A stretch of DNA of 50,907 bases from Lachnospiraceae bacterium (GTDB lineage: Bacteria; Bacillota; Clostridia; Lachnospirales; Lachnospiraceae), in the NCBI GenBank assembly GCA_017622875.1, contig JAGAQG010000028.1:1-50907 (forward strand), read 5' to 3'. Below are positions 7,459 to 12,958 of this stretch, one piece after another; within the stretch, counting starts at the first letter, position 1, and the number at the start of each line of letters is the position of its first letter. A model generated the notes under the pieces. It saw nothing but the letters and a program-made list of their open reading frames with translations, searched no databases and had not been told where the DNA came from. The translations under genes were made by a program, and so were the position numbers.

Positions 7459-8304
7459 ATGAAGAAAGAAACAAGGACAGTGGTTTATGATGATGAGCTT
7501 CGGATTGAGGCATACCGTTTTGAGGGAATCGTGCAGCCATTTCCAAACCACTTCCATGAATATTATGTGATTGGATTTATCGAGGACGGGGAACGCTGCC
7601 TCTCCTGCCGCAATCAAGAATACACCATAGCAAAAGGTGATATCGTTCTTTTCAATCCCGGAGACAATCATGCCTGTGTGCAGAGTGATGATGACACATT
7701 GGATTACAGGGGATTTAATATTACCAAAGAAGTTATGCTGAACCTGGCGGAAGAAGTAACCGGGAAAAGGGAACTCCCCGGCTTCTCCAAAACCGTGATC
7801 TTCGATGAGGAAGTGACCTGCTATCTGCACCCGCTCCACGAACTGGTCATGAAAGGCTCCTGTGAGATTGGTAAGGAAGAAAACCTGCTGCTCCTTATAT
7901 CTCTGTTAATTCAGCGGTACGGACAGCCCTTTGAAAGCTGTATCCCGGAATGCCGGGAGGAAATTGAAAAAGCCTGCAATTTTATGAATCAGTACTTCGC
8001 AGACCGGATTTATTTAGATCAGATCTGCCGCTATGCTGGTCTTAGCAAATCCACACTGCTCCGGGCCTTTACCAAGTCCAAAGGTGTCACACCATACAGC
8101 TACTTAGAGAACATACGCATTGGCAGGGCAAAGAAACTTCTGGAACAGGGCGTACCTCCCATAGAGGCGGCCATGCAGACAGGCTTTTCCGACCAGAGCC
8201 ATTTCACGAACTATTTCAACCGATTTATCGGATTGGCTCCGGGTCTTTACCGTGACATATTTTTAGAAAAAGAATCCACGAAGGAGGAAACGCCGAATGA
8301 GTAA
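7459..8304 (+). CDS. AraC-family transcriptional regulator with cupin sensor
   Basis: The 281-residue regulator has an N-terminal cupin-type ligand domain (about 10-150; FPNHFHEYYVIGF and FNPGDNHACV look like the metal/ligand barrel). A C-terminal pair of AraC helix-turn-helix motifs spans about 175-275 (LDQICRYAGLSKSTLLRAF, and AAMQTGFSDQSHFTNYFNRF). It overlaps the DMT transporter gene by 8 bases and is the first gene of a three-gene operon. It probably activates or represses that operon in response to a small molecule. The start ATG follows AAGGAAGGAA. Confidence 0.88.
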   Translation: MKKETRTVVYDDELRIEAYRFEGIVQPFPNHFHEYYVIGFIEDGERCLSCRNQEYTIAKGDIVLFNPGDNHACVQSDDDTLDYRGFNITKEVMLNLAEEVTGKRELPGFSKTVIFDEEVTCYLHPLHELVMKGSCEIGKEENLLLLISLLIQRYGQPFESCIPECREEIEKACNFMNQYFADRIYLDQICRYAGLSKSTLLRAFTKSKGVTPYSYLENIRIGRAKKLLEQGVPPIEAAMQTGFSDQSHFTNYFNRFIGLAPGLYRDIFLEKESTKEETPNE

Positions 8305-9193
8305 AAAAGCGACCGGGCATCTGGCGGCGCTGGTCACGATCCTGATATGGGGAACCACCTTCATCTCCACCAAAGTGCTGTTAGTGGATTTTGAACCGAT
8401 AGAAATCCTGTTCTTCCGGTTTATCCTGGGATTTCTGGCATTGCTGATCGTCTATCCCCGCCGGATGAAAGGCACTACCAAACGGCAGGAAGCTGTCTTT
8501 GCAGCGGCGGGGCTGTGCGGCGTGCGCCTGTATTATCTGCTGGAGAACATTGCCCTGACTTATACAATGGCTTCCAACGTAGGTGTGATTATCTCCATAG
8601 CCCCTTTTTTTACCGCAATACTCACCCACCTGTTCACAAAGGAAGAAAAGCTGCGTGCAAATTTCTTCATCGGATTTGTAGTTGCAATGGCCGGAATCTG
8701 CCTGATCAGCTTTAACGGAGCGAAGATGCAGCTAAATCCTATCGGTGACTTATTGGCCGTAGCTGCGGCAGTCGTGTGGGCCTGCTACTCTGTGTTGACA
8801 CGGAAGATCAGCGGTTTTGGATATCACACCATCCAGACCACAAGGCGGGTATTTGCTTATGGCATCGTATTTATGGTACCTGCACTATTCCTGTTTGACT
8901 GCCGCATTGGAGCAGAACGGTTCGCAAATCCAGTCTACCTGGGGAATCTGATCTTCCTGGGCTTGGGTGCGTCCGCACTCTGCTTCGTCACCTGGAACAT
9001 GGCTGTGAAGGTTCTAGGCGCTGTCAAAACAAGCATTTACATTTACTTGTTTCCGGTTATCACGGTTATCACATCCGCCCTTATCCTGAAAGAAAAAGTA
9101 ACCGTGATGTCCGGCATAGGTACGGTCCTGGCACTGATCGGACTGTTCCTTTCTGAGTACAGAGGAAAAACACAAAAACAGGAGGAAATCTGA
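8297..9193 (+). CDS. DMT-superfamily transporter (EamA family)
   Basis: The 298-residue protein has about ten transmembrane helices in two EamA repeats (about 8-138 and 148-288). It begins with the typical LVTILIWGTTFISTK and ends with the family's GTVLALIGLFLSEYR helix. The family exports or takes up amino acids, nucleotides or other small metabolites; the substrate cannot be told from sequence. It overlaps the AraC regulator upstream, and the DUF2000 gene follows after one base, so all three are probably co-expressed. Confidence 0.88.
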   Translation: MSKKATGHLAALVTILIWGTTFISTKVLLVDFEPIEILFFRFILGFLALLIVYPRRMKGTTKRQEAVFAAAGLCGVRLYYLLENIALTYTMASNVGVIISIAPFFTAILTHLFTKEEKLRANFFIGFVVAMAGICLISFNGAKMQLNPIGDLLAVAAAVVWACYSVLTRKISGFGYHTIQTTRRVFAYGIVFMVPALFLFDCRIGAERFANPVYLGNLIFLGLGASALCFVTWNMAVKVLGAVKTSIYIYLFPVITVITSALILKEKVTVMSGIGTVLALIGLFLSEYRGKTQKQEEI

Positions 9194-9194
9194 A

Positions 9195-9617
9195 ATGGAT
9201 TTACAGAATGAAAAATGCGTCATGGTCATTGACGAAAATCTGCCGCTTGGCATTATTGCAAATACGGCGGCTATCATGGGAATCACCCTGGGAAAAGAGA
9301 TGCCGGAGGTGGTCGGTGCAAATGTTACAGACCAAAGCGGAAACGAGCATCTCGGCATCATTGAATTTCCTGTACCAATCTTAAAAGGTTCACCGGAAAT
9401 CATCAAAGCAATCCGTGAGAAGCTCTATCAACCTGACTTTCAGGACTTGACCGTGGTTGACTTTAGCGATCTGGCACAGGGCTGTAAAACCTATGATGAA
9501 TTTATCTCAAAAATGGGGGACATGTCAGAAAGCACTCTGCAATACTTCGGTCTTGCCATCTGCGGTCCTAAGAAAAAAGTCAATAAGCTCACAGGCAGTA
9601 TGCCATTGCTGCGATAG
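9195..9617 (+). CDS. DUF2000 family protein
   Basis: The 140-residue protein matches DUF2000 in pattern: an N-terminal KCVMVIDENLPLGIIANTAA strand-turn, a central LGIIEFPVPILKG, and a C-terminal GLAICGPKKKVNKLTGSMPLL. The family is small, cytosolic and of unknown function, and often sits beside AraC regulators and DMT transporters, as here. The gene starts one base after the transporter with GGAGGAAA as ribosome binding site. Confidence 0.75.
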   Translation: MDLQNEKCVMVIDENLPLGIIANTAAIMGITLGKEMPEVVGANVTDQSGNEHLGIIEFPVPILKGSPEIIKAIREKLYQPDFQDLTVVDFSDLAQGCKTYDEFISKMGDMSESTLQYFGLAICGPKKKVNKLTGSMPLLR

Positions 9618-9645: not shown

Positions 9646-9703
9646 GGAAGTATCTTTTTCCTATATCCACTCCATCTTCTGATACTTCCGAAATACTTCC
9701 GAA
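9646..9703. repeat. Inverted repeat plus tandem 11-base repeat after DUF2000
   Basis: GGAAGTATC (9646-9654) pairs with GATACTTCC (9681-9689) across a 26-base loop. The right arm is part of a tandem duplication of ATACTTCCGAA (9682-9692 and 9693-9703). There is no good T run, so it is a poor terminator; it may close the AraC operon or mark an operator next to the ribU promoter. Confidence 0.45.
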
Positions 9704-9717
9704 ATCCCCTTCTTCTA

Positions 9718-9746
9718 TTGCCTTACAGCATTTTAAGAGGTATGAT
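9718..9746 (+). promoter_or_regulatory. Sigma-A promoter of the ribU operon
   Basis: TTGCCT (9718-9723) and TATGAT (9741-9746) are separated by exactly 17 bases. Transcription would start near 9753, about 16 bases before the FMN riboswitch. No other promoter-like pair is nearer to ribU. Confidence 0.65.
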
Positions 9747-9768
9747 TGATTCCGACAGCTGAATAAGA

Positions 9769-9912
9769 AGTCTTCAGGGCAGGGTGACTCTTATTGGATA
9801 AAAGATATCCAATGGGCAAGAATTCCCGATTGGCGGTACAGTCCGCAAGCACATATGTGCATGATTTGGTGCAATTCCAAAACCAACAGTATAGTCTGGA
9901 TAGAAGAAGATC
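9769..9912 (+). promoter_or_regulatory. FMN riboswitch (RFN element)
   Basis: The conserved RFN core is clear: TCTTCAGGGCAGGGTGA, then AATTCCCGATTGGCGGTA, then GATTTGGTG, then TTCCAAAACCAACAGTATAG, and the closing GAAGA that pairs with the opening TCTTC. FMN binding to this RNA normally turns down riboflavin synthesis or uptake genes. An extra hairpin (ATTGGATA / TATCCAAT) is inserted between GGGTGA and AATTCCC, and a second variable stem (GCACATATGTGC) follows the third helix. It is followed by a terminator at 9961-9998 and the ribU gene, so FMN should cause termination. Confidence 0.95.
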
Positions 9913-9960
9913 GTGCATATCACAGAATATATGTTTCTTGATATTCTGTAAATATTCCTT

Positions 9961-9998
9961 AACACCTGAAAGACATTCTTTAAGGTGTTAATTTTTTT
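9961..9998 (+). terminator. Riboswitch-controlled intrinsic terminator
   Basis: AACACCT (9961-9967) pairs with AGGTGTT (9983-9989) and is followed by a run of seven T residues. It lies between the riboswitch and the ribU ribosome binding site, the normal place for an FMN-dependent terminator. Confidence 0.85.
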
Positions 9999-10014
9999 CA
10001 AGGAGAAAATCTGA

Positions 10015-10659
10015 ATGAATACAAGAACAAAAATGCTTACCTCAACTGCCATGCTGTGCGCCATCGCCTACATAGCCGTTGCTGCCTGTCGGATACCCGT
10101 CGTGCTTTTTCTGAAGTACGATCCCAAAGATGTCATCATCACATTAGGAGGTCTGATCTGGGGACCGATGACCTCTTGCTTTGTGTCCGTCATTGTATCT
10201 CTGATTGAAATGTTAACCATAAGTGAAACCGGCATATTAGGGTGCTTAATGAATATCTTATCCACCTGCTCCTTTGCCTGCACCACCTCTTTGATTTATA
10301 AAAAGAAGCATACGTTAGCAGGCGCTGTTACCGGATTGTTCGTTGGCAGCCTTACAATGGTTGTTGTCATGCTGCTGTGGAATTACCTCATCACTCCGTT
10401 TTATATGGGATACCCCAGAGAAGCCGTTGCCAGACTGCTGCTCCCGGCATTTCTTCCATATAATCTCTTAAAGGCAGGACTGAATTCTGGATTCACGTTT
10501 CTGCTATATAAACCAGTGATAACAGCGCTGAGAAAAGCAGGATACCTTGCCACCCCCGTCAATGCCTCTGGCAAGAGACATCTTGGATTATTCCTTTTTT
10601 CAATGCTCGTTATTGTCACCTGTACATTATTCATTCTGTCCATGAATGAAATCATATGA
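10015..10659 (+). CDS. ribU: Riboflavin ECF transporter substrate-binding subunit RibU
   Basis: The 214-residue membrane protein has the RibU/ECF S-component layout of about six helices. The N-terminus (TSTAMLCAIAYIAVAACRI) is the site where S components bind the ECF-T subunit, and the family motif around KYDPKDVIITLGGLIWGP forms part of the riboflavin site. It needs the general EcfA-A'-T module, which is not in this window. The FMN riboswitch in front strongly supports riboflavin as substrate. It overlaps or abuts the flavokinase/winged-helix gene. Confidence 0.93.
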   Translation: MNTRTKMLTSTAMLCAIAYIAVAACRIPVVLFLKYDPKDVIITLGGLIWGPMTSCFVSVIVSLIEMLTISETGILGCLMNILSTCSFACTTSLIYKKKHTLAGAVTGLFVGSLTMVVVMLLWNYLITPFYMGYPREAVARLLLPAFLPYNLLKAGLNSGFTFLLYKPVITALRKAGYLATPVNASGKRHLGLFLFSMLVIVTCTLFILSMNEII

Positions 10660-10670
10660 GGTCAAAGTCT

Positions 10671-11375
10671 ATGGAAAAAACAAACAGCCCTGTCCCCGTT
10701 TTTGTAACAGCAGGAACCATCATACACGGACGTGGAATTGGAAAACTAATTGGAATGCCGACTGCAAATCTAAAAATCGCAGACAAAAAAGCCCTTCCTC
10801 CCGAAGGCGTTTATATTGCCACAGCCACTTTGGAAAATAAAACCTACTACGGCATTACGCACATTGGTCCCCAGCCTACCATCAGCAATGATAAAGAAAT
10901 ATCTGTGGAAACCCATCTCCTGAATTTCAATAAGGATATCTATGGATTGGAGATGGAGATTCAACTTATGAAAAGGCTGCGCACTCCGCAGAAATTTGAC
11001 AATCTTACCCTGCTACTGGAACAAATCCGTCTGGACTGTATTGCTGTGCAAGAGTTTTATGGCATCCGGCGGATCAGCTCACGGCTTTATATGAACGCTC
11101 AAAAACATGAGGTGAAAATTGACAACCACGCTTTATACTTATCTCCAAAAGAATTTGATGTTTTATATCTGCTCTATTCCAGCCCTGACATTATCTTCAC
11201 AAAGGAACAGATTTATGAATCGGTCTGGCACGAAGCAGCAAACGACCACTTCCATGCTGTGGAAAACACAGTTTTTCAAGTGAGGAAGAAAACTGCAGCA
11301 TACGAAGATGGGTTGAATTTCATTAAAACTGTAGTTGGATATGGATACAAATTCGACCCCGCCAACAAAGAATAA
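10671..11375 (+). CDS. Riboflavin kinase fused to an OmpR-type winged-helix DNA-binding domain
   Basis: Residues about 10-125 are a bacterial-type flavokinase. PTAN lies at 30-33 after a glycine-rich HGRGIGKLIGM, GVYIATA follows, the catalytic Glu is at 80 (ISVETHLL), YGLEMEI lies at 91-97 and the R..KFD motif at 104-110. Riboflavin would be phosphorylated by ATP to FMN. The FMN adenylyltransferase domain of normal RibF is absent. Residues about 137-230 form a complete winged helix (LSPKEFDVLYLLY, then FTKEQIYESVWHE, then AVENTVFQVRKK, then VGYGYKF). ATG at 10671 has GAGGTC nine bases upstream; an in-frame ATG at 10656 overlaps the ribU stop and is possible. RibR of Bacillus subtilis, a flavokinase with a C-terminal regulatory RNA-binding region, and archaeal RbkR, a winged-helix/kinase protein, are the nearest known concepts. 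Neither uses this domain order with an OmpR-type output. Confidence 0.85.
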   Translation: MEKTNSPVPVFVTAGTIIHGRGIGKLIGMPTANLKIADKKALPPEGVYIATATLENKTYYGITHIGPQPTISNDKEISVETHLLNFNKDIYGLEMEIQLMKRLRTPQKFDNLTLLLEQIRLDCIAVQEFYGIRRISSRLYMNAQKHEVKIDNHALYLSPKEFDVLYLLYSSPDIIFTKEQIYESVWHEAANDHFHAVENTVFQVRKKTAAYEDGLNFIKTVVGYGYKFDPANKE

Positions 11376-11415
11376 CAGCTATCCCCGTCATTTTGCAAAA
11401 CGCTCTTTAAGCAGA

Positions 11416-11460
11416 CTGCTGATACATGAAGCTTTCCCATGTGCCAGCAGCCTTTATTTT
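11416..11460 (+). terminator. Terminator of the ribU operon
   Basis: CTGCTG-A-ACATG pairs with CATGTG-CAGCAG, giving a stem of about 11 bp with one internal mismatch. It is followed by CCTTTATTTT. It lies 40 bases past the flavokinase-fusion stop and may also act on the converging minus-strand gene at 11459. Confidence 0.7.
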
Positions 11461-12596: not shown

Positions 12597-12630
12597 TAAA
12601 AATGCACCCTCAACGCTCAAAGGGTGCATT
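12597..12630 (-). terminator. Terminator embedded in the truncated flavodoxin end
   Basis: A perfect 10-bp stem (AATGCACCCT at 12601-12610, AGGGTGCATT at 12621-12630) is followed on the minus strand by a T run. The stop codon of the truncated flavodoxin lies in its loop. A second copy of AATGCACC occurs at 12571-12578. Confidence 0.8.
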
Positions 12631-12910
12631 GTATCAATTTGTGGTACGCAAGCCAGATTGGAAATCCTACAAAAATCGTATCATAAGAGGCAATGTCAGC
12701 ATCTTTATCAGCGATTGCAGGACGAAACGTCAGATTATTCATTTCTACTGTACTTCTTGAAAATTTATCCATCCAGTTTAAGTCTGCTTTTGTATATGGA
12801 ATTTCCGGTTTAATCTCATAAAGGTCTGCTCCGGAAGCCTCTGCCAGATTTTTCGAAACTCCTGCAGTAATACCACTTGCTGAAAAATAGGCAACTAATT
12901 TCTTGCTCAT
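12617..12910 (-). pseudogene. Flavodoxin, 3'-truncated
   Basis: The N-terminus is a good flavodoxin: YFSASGITAGVSKNLAE is the FMN phosphate-binding loop, followed by ADLYEIKPEIPYTKADLNWM, then YDTIFVGFPIW. After GFPIW the sequence diverges, and the frame ends after eleven more residues inside a terminator hairpin. It therefore stops at about 97 residues where family members reach about 150-180, losing the second half of the FMN site. The start at 12910 is chosen because GGAGGT lies seven bases upstream. A deletion joining the gene to its terminator is the simplest reading; FMN binding is unlikely. Confidence 0.75.
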
Positions 12911-12958
12911 AGTCAATACCTCCATCTGTTTTCTATTAATACAAGTATATATGATGTT

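Follow-up and report, generated by a model that had tools for sequence, protein, structure and literature searches.

A riboflavin kinase fused to an OmpR-type winged helix as a candidate autoregulator of flavin uptake in some gut bacteria

The ribU operon and its fusion protein

A 50,907-nucleotide contig of a Lachnospiraceae bacterium (JAGAQG010000028.1, assembly GCA_017622875.1), referred to here at its full length as the window, carries a short forward-strand operon in which a ribU-like gene is followed directly by a gene for a riboflavin kinase fused to a C-terminal OmpR/PhoB-type winged helix. The fusion recurs in related genomes, always behind ribU, and each intact copy is accompanied by the same direct DNA repeat at a fixed distance from the promoter. 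Based on these sequence comparisons, we consider it probable that the fusion of some gut bacteria is a bifunctional protein, both a riboflavin kinase and a one-component transcription factor that autoregulates flavin uptake, likely as an activator.

The operon begins with a predicted promoter at positions 9718 to 9746 (TTGCCT, a 17-bp spacer, and TATGAT), and the direct repeat TTCCGAA-N4-TTCCGAA, the predicted site of the winged helix, lies upstream of it at 9686 to 9703. A scan of the region found promoter-like sites at a count not above that in shuffled sequences, and the promoter call therefore rests on a geometry that is conserved among relatives. A covariance model placed a flavin mononucleotide (FMN) riboswitch aptamer (RF00050) at 9766 to 9915 on the forward strand, with 83.2 bits, above the gathering score of 66.2. 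The leader ends, as judged from fold and sequence, in an intrinsic terminator at 9959 to 9998, where a hairpin (9959 to 9991) is followed by a T run and the 45 nucleotides folded gave −13.6 kcal/mol; the consensus terminator scanner had no entry for this hairpin. The next gene, at 10015 to 10659, is divergent and is the second of RibU type in this genome. Its product is a putative RibU, the S component of an energy-coupling factor (ECF) transporter, as assigned from its match to PF12822 (E=2.5e-15) and its nearest solved relative. RibU proteins account for all three of the solved relatives found, and NCBIfam yielded only a sub-cutoff match to the FolT family.

The open reading frame (ORF) of the fusion, right behind ribU, is open from the ATG at 10656 to 11375 (239 amino acids). 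The ATG at 10671 is probably the start, giving a protein of 234 amino acids, because it is preceded by GAGGT and several relatives begin there. In the 239-residue frame, the flavokinase domain (PF01687) covers residues 17 to 133 (E=2.1e-36; profile positions 6 to 122 of 124) and the Trans_reg_C domain (PF00486) covers residues 159 to 233 (E=9.5e-16), which correspond to positions 10704 to 11054 and 11130 to 11354 of the window, respectively. The N-terminal half is thus riboflavin kinase, and no receiver domain was among the Pfam scan matches. RibF profiles matched only from their positions 169 to 193 onward, and the flavin adenine dinucleotide (FAD) synthetase half of RibF is absent from the fusion protein.

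With the start at 10671, the PTAN motif occupies residues 30 to 33 and the active-site glutamate is residue 80. These align with PTAN 207 to 210 and Glu268 of the C. ammoniagenes enzyme, for which a structure search returned a deposited E268D mutant. The aligned glutamate is the catalytic residue of riboflavin kinases, and we would expect the fusion protein to have kinase activity. In a structure model with a mean predicted local distance difference test score of 76, residues ~7 to 135 match riboflavin kinases and residues ~135 to 232 match OmpR-family DNA-binding domains. The helix at 11250 to 11303, with the core HAVENTVFQVRKK, is presumably the recognition helix, by analogy with OmpR-family domains, and is the best conserved of the elements that we measured. 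A sequence-only reading of this DNA had described a complete flavokinase active site (PTAN, Glu80) lacking the FAD-synthetase half, a complete C-terminal OmpR/PhoB domain, and ribU with an FMN riboswitch and terminator ahead of the fusion; all of these were recovered, at or near the residues and positions proposed.

Distribution and origin of the fusion

A search of 397 genomes of the bacterial family yielded 11 with a full-length fusion, and a further contig scan added more loci. After duplicates were merged (L005 with L019, L006 with L021, L013 with L023, and L161 with L031), 22 loci remained. The sequence-only reading had suggested a search for the joint architecture and its neighbors, and the outcome was uniform: ribU lies directly ahead of the fusion in every locus, and the fusion is intact in 21 of them. 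It had also raised a frameshift or assembly error joining two genes, an explanation that the 21 distinct intact loci rule out. The remaining locus, L029 (4444 to 5690), is broken. The frame of its winged helix ends early, after QIRKK; 32 residues are missing from the start of its ribU; and the upstream sequence, in which neither the repeat nor the riboswitch was found, differs from that of the other loci. This locus could reflect decay or an assembly error and was left out of the 21.

In a tree that also included the kinase-only loci L015 and L016 and the kinase domains of two RibF proteins, all 22 fusions grouped in a single clade (99/99) that excluded L015 and L016. In both of these, ribU is followed by a kinase without a winged helix. 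Because the clade excludes them, ribU and a plain kinase behind an FMN riboswitch probably represent the older state, to which the winged helix was added once, and the metabolic coupling of transporter and kinase probably came first. The same two loci favor the idea that the protein is a salvage kinase only, phosphorylating imported riboflavin beside the transporter while its winged helix has no regulatory use. The ratio of nonsynonymous to synonymous substitution rates (dN/dS), however, was 0.12 to 0.33 in each domain among the window, L019, and L020, three close relatives that make small samples, and both domains appear to be under purifying selection for this reason. Such selection on the winged helix, together with a DNA site inherited along with it, makes a role in salvage only the least probable of the explanations that we weighed.

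A wider search, run with strict E-values and few candidates scored per genome, such that distant members could escape, found the fusion in 2 of 392 genomes of the order and 1 of 361 genomes of the class, all of them inside the family. Two loci labeled Oscillospiraceae (L026 and L027) are nested in the L023 to L025 cluster of the tree, owing to either transfer or mislabeling. L023 itself is from a culturable species, Fusicatenibacter saccharivorans. A seemingly distant full-length match, L051, proved to be an ordinary response regulator. L017/L156 was not counted as a family member, since it is a winged-helix remnant with no kinase or ribU nearby; at L156:2913-4684, this remnant of the fusion's winged helix stands beside a stand-alone 103-residue winged-helix ORF and a resolvase-type ORF. 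In another genome (G056; L009:1297-1417, minus strand), an azaaromatic (yjdF) riboswitch lies directly 3′ of the fusion gene, and the ORF after it resembles YjdF on inspection by eye.

A direct repeat that accompanies the fusion

Reading the leader, we found TTCCGAAATACTTCCGAA at positions 9686 to 9703, a direct repeat made up of two half-sites of 7 bp with a period of 11 bp. Dimers of OmpR/PhoB-type proteins bind direct half-sites 11 bp apart, and the pho box has a period of 11 bp. The pattern TTCCGAA-N4-TTCCGAA is exact in all 21 intact fusion loci, from which it was itself written. In the window, the repeat ends 14 bp ahead of the −35 element, and this 14-bp gap to the TTG of the −35 element recurs in 21 of 21 loci. 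Twenty of these were located by a script that scored −35/−10 pairs, favored TTG and TA...T, and placed no constraint on the distance to the repeat. In the last, L012, which was read by eye, the gap is ATGGGGCGATTCTA, followed by TTGCGC, 17 bp, and TATCCC. Because the search required them, all 14 core bases have 2.0 bits of information, compared with 0.00 to 0.14 bits for the six bases at −7 to −2 upstream of the core. Since the 30-nucleotide flanks upstream of the repeat form 15 separate groups when clustered at 60% identity, the repeat is not simply a product of shared recent ancestry.

Counted by hand from the −10 element, the repeat lies at about −67 to −50. With the repeat outside the core promoter and its distance from it invariant, this arrangement suits an activator in contact with RNA polymerase better than a repressor. 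The same site-specific autoregulator could instead be a repressor, with the flavin- or nucleotide-bound protein occupying the repeat and blocking initiation at ribU. Many autogenous vitamin regulators are repressors, BirA and archaeal RbkR among them, and the sole copy of the repeat that we found in a promoter-like setting is that of the protein's own operon. However, a repeat that overlaps neither the −35 nor the −10 element and stands 14 bp from the former in every intact locus suits contact with RNA polymerase, and the −35 element reads TTGC.. in 14 of the 21 loci, away from TTGACA. We regard repression as unlikely, although it is to be taken seriously.

Across the family, the exact repeat occurs in 44 of 397 genomes. 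All 11 fusion genomes have exactly one copy, 0.6 to 1.0 kb upstream of the fusion and ahead of ribU. The repeat is also present in 33 of 386 non-fusion genomes, somewhat above the backward control pattern (22 genomes and 25 hits, counted from the table), and at 22 of these 33 sites that we examined there was no ribU, fusion-type kinase, or winged helix within ~1.5 kb. Close relatives of the window ribU were found in 51 of the 397 genomes, at 52 places. Among 30 such loci, which include 20 of the 41 non-fusion places, the repeat was present at 10 of 10 with the fusion and at 0 of 20 without it. Six of the 40 non-fusion genomes with a relative of this ribU have the repeat somewhere, never on the contig that carries ribU. 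The weight of this comparison lies in the single occurrence in each fusion genome, the constant spacing, and those ribU loci that lack the fusion.

OmpR-type regulators are common in these genomes, with several among our matches, and the repeat might belong to one of them, the winged helix of the kinase being a passenger. The division of the ribU loci described above argues against this, as does the recognition helix being the best conserved element. In both loci in which the winged helix has been lost or broken, L029 and L164, moreover, the repeat is degraded or absent. The latter has a ribU 74% identical to that of the window, a kinase ORF that ends at 87 residues, and no winged helix. At the 14-bp position, it retains one intact half-site, the other reading ATCTGAA; alternatively, L164 can be read as having a one-mismatch repeat 3 bp from the −35 element. 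We therefore judge another OmpR-family regulator to be an improbable owner of the site. The transcriptional layer on top of the riboswitch that the sequence-only reading had proposed is well supported by this PhoB-type repeat, which tracks the fusion across our comparisons, and there is strong support for the repeat being specific to the fusion's winged helix, as its putative binding site.

A longer pattern, searched with 2 mismatches in 12 fusion genomes, gave 41 hits, comprising the 12 ribU sites, one site in G035 read backwards, and 28 others. Of the 28, 26 lie inside ORFs of 70 amino acids or more, and none shows the promoter geometry, with a TTG 14 bp on and a −10 element behind it. Given these two features, the sites found lend no support to a wider regulon, including the flavodoxin promoters that had been suggested as targets from the sequence, and the visible regulon is accordingly the ribU operon itself.

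Around this operon, the window contains an apparent operon directly 5′ (7459 to 9617) that encodes an AraC-type regulator, an EamA transporter, and a DUF2000 protein. On the minus strand at 12617 to 12925, there is a shortened Flavodoxin_4 ORF of 102 amino acids that covers profile positions 1 to 85 of 155 and is likely a broken gene.

Proposed protein and RNA control of flavin uptake

The window genome also has a separate bifunctional RibF (G000:C48; 36% identity to the fusion kinase) and another RibU-type gene (PF12822, 121 bits) behind another FMN riboswitch. By its motifs, this other gene is probably the canonical RibU. Because the genome has its own RibF and a second RibU-type gene, the ribU-fusion operon appears to provide an extra, regulated route of uptake. 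6,7-Dimethyl-8-ribityllumazine (DMRL) synthase was not found in 10 of the 11 fusion genomes searched (the window genome is 88% complete) and was found in 14 of 14 controls; most of the carriers searched are for this reason predicted to be riboflavin auxotrophs that depend on uptake. In a study of Clostridium scindens (PMC12934955), low riboflavin raised both ribU genes, and FMN riboswitches are described there as terminating transcription once FMN is bound.

The FMN riboswitch reaches the gathering score in 14 of the 22 fusion loci. It was not found at this score in L008, L012, L014, L028, L030, and L031, and L021 has a 34.6-bit remnant; with L029, this makes 8 of 22. All seven intact loci in which the riboswitch is lost or degenerate keep both the repeat and the promoter geometry. 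By comparison, 17 of 20 non-fusion ribU loci have the riboswitch, namely 15 of 18 plus L180 and L190, which are the same places as L015 and L016. Among the three without it is L184, a locus cut by a contig end in which the 3′ part of an FMN riboswitch can be read by eye. The excess of loss with the fusion (8/22 versus 3/20) is suggestive only. On the tree, the losses are scattered and would amount to about five or six events if there was no regain, as judged by eye and with some forks weak. All 11 fusion genomes keep at least one FMN riboswitch above the cutoff elsewhere. One genome (G263) has two copies of the window-type ribU, with the fusion and DNA repeat on C25 and with a riboswitch only on C53 (L167 and L011). 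At L178:917-1290, an FMN riboswitch and then a Clostridiales-1 RNA precede ribU, and L166 has a Clostridiales-1 RNA at its edge.

These loci bear on a further possibility, in which the fusion, like RibR, would be a second flavokinase whose target is the leader RNA, where it would interfere with the FMN riboswitch. A second kinase beside a bifunctional RibF, encoded in a riboswitch operon, would fit such a mechanism. Nonetheless, the seven fusion loci with no riboswitch or only a remnant retain the fusion and its DNA site, and the C-terminal domain is of the OmpR DNA-binding type by both profile and fold. We consider action on the RNA very improbable. A separate idea, plausible but somewhat less likely than not, is that flavin control has been shifting from an RNA sensor to a protein one: after a single fusion event, the intact fusion loci would have retained regulator and repeat as a pair, and the operon would have lost its FMN riboswitch about five or six separate times, leaving the kinase as the sole visible flavin control there. 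In some members, such as L032, the kinase may have become a pure sensor.

In the mechanism that we propose for the fusion as an autoregulator, the C-terminal winged helix would bind as a tandem dimer to the two 11-bp-spaced TTCCGAA half-sites just 5′ of the −35 element of its own operon. The winged helix would then set initiation, most likely as an activator, and the FMN riboswitch would set elongation. The kinase domain would serve as the sensor, with the binding of riboflavin, FMN, or nucleotide altering dimerization or DNA affinity. Negative feedback seems likeliest, because the operon encodes uptake and FMN-bound riboswitches terminate; here, the form without flavin product would activate uptake and the flavin-loaded form would let go. 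Induction by substrate is a less likely alternative. The sequence-only reading had likewise proposed FMN synthesis by the protein and a control of DNA binding through occupancy of the kinase, both of which would agree with the conserved active-site residues.

Several observations weigh against this interpretation. The sign of regulation is read solely from the position of the repeat (about −67 to −50) and its spacing. The pattern was written from the same fusion loci, so that the 21/21 and 11/11 counts were not blind, and since the genomes are also related, the Fisher P value of 9e-12 for fusion versus non-fusion genomes is an overstatement. The 28 further 2-mismatch sites exceed the 11 hits of the backward control. 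The kinase may be redundant, given RibF and the second RibU-type gene. Finally, the active-site residues for catalysis are not strictly kept: glycine replaces the catalytic glutamate in L032 (4941 to 5693), and PTAD replaces PTAN in L022 (4986 to 5729). Both proteins have full domain matches and keep the winged helix and the DNA repeat, and they are possible sensor-only members.

Enzymes of vitamin metabolism that carry a DNA-binding domain and regulate their own pathway include BirA and NadR. The fusion shares this layout with them; their enzyme and DNA-binding families are unrelated to its own. RbkR of Archaea, reportedly described by Rodionova et al. in 2017, is both a riboflavin kinase and a transcriptional regulator. 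In one article, RbkR is "bifunctional as gene regulator and enzyme," and a relative without the N-terminal helix-turn-helix domain is mentioned (PMC8305020); archaeal RbkR is also treated in another (PMC10746257). Both RbkR and, on our interpretation, the fusion combine a riboflavin kinase with a regulator of flavin metabolism in a single protein. The DNA-binding domain is N-terminal in RbkR, whereas that of the fusion is C-terminal and of the OmpR type, and the predicted target of the fusion differs in being an uptake operon that has, or had, an FMN riboswitch. The archaeal kinase is also CTP-dependent and of another family, whereas that of the fusion is of the bacterial/eukaryotic PF01687 type. 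The likeness is apparently convergent, reached independently.

RibR of Bacillus subtilis is described as a second flavokinase beside the bifunctional enzyme, one that binds RNA and acts on the FMN riboswitch. The fusion resembles it as a second flavokinase tied to the control of FMN-riboswitch genes and differs in its partner, a PF00486 winged helix with a predicted DNA site 5′ of the promoter. The sequence-only view that the protein matches neither RibR nor RbkR holds on domain content. RibF belongs to the same kinase family; it carries an FAD-synthetase half at its N terminus and lacks a winged helix. PhoB/OmpR-family response regulators (VanR, SaeR, and PhoB) share the C-terminal winged helix and, as in the pho box, the 11-bp direct repeat; the fusion has a riboflavin kinase in place of their receiver domain. 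In the open-licence literature, which leaves most subscription papers outside and thus gives no proof of absence, no paper was recognizable as describing the fusion.

If our interpretation is correct, a bacterial riboflavin kinase would be a transcription factor as well, built from another kinase and another DNA-binding domain than RbkR. Two flavin controls, one RNA and one protein, would be stacked on a single operon, and relatives with both or with one would allow direct study of how a protein sensor replaces a riboswitch. Because the predicted site is a single short sequence at a constant position, binding and ligand response are readily testable. More broadly, the fusion suggests that a metabolic enzyme, in place of a receiver, can drive an output domain of the OmpR type.
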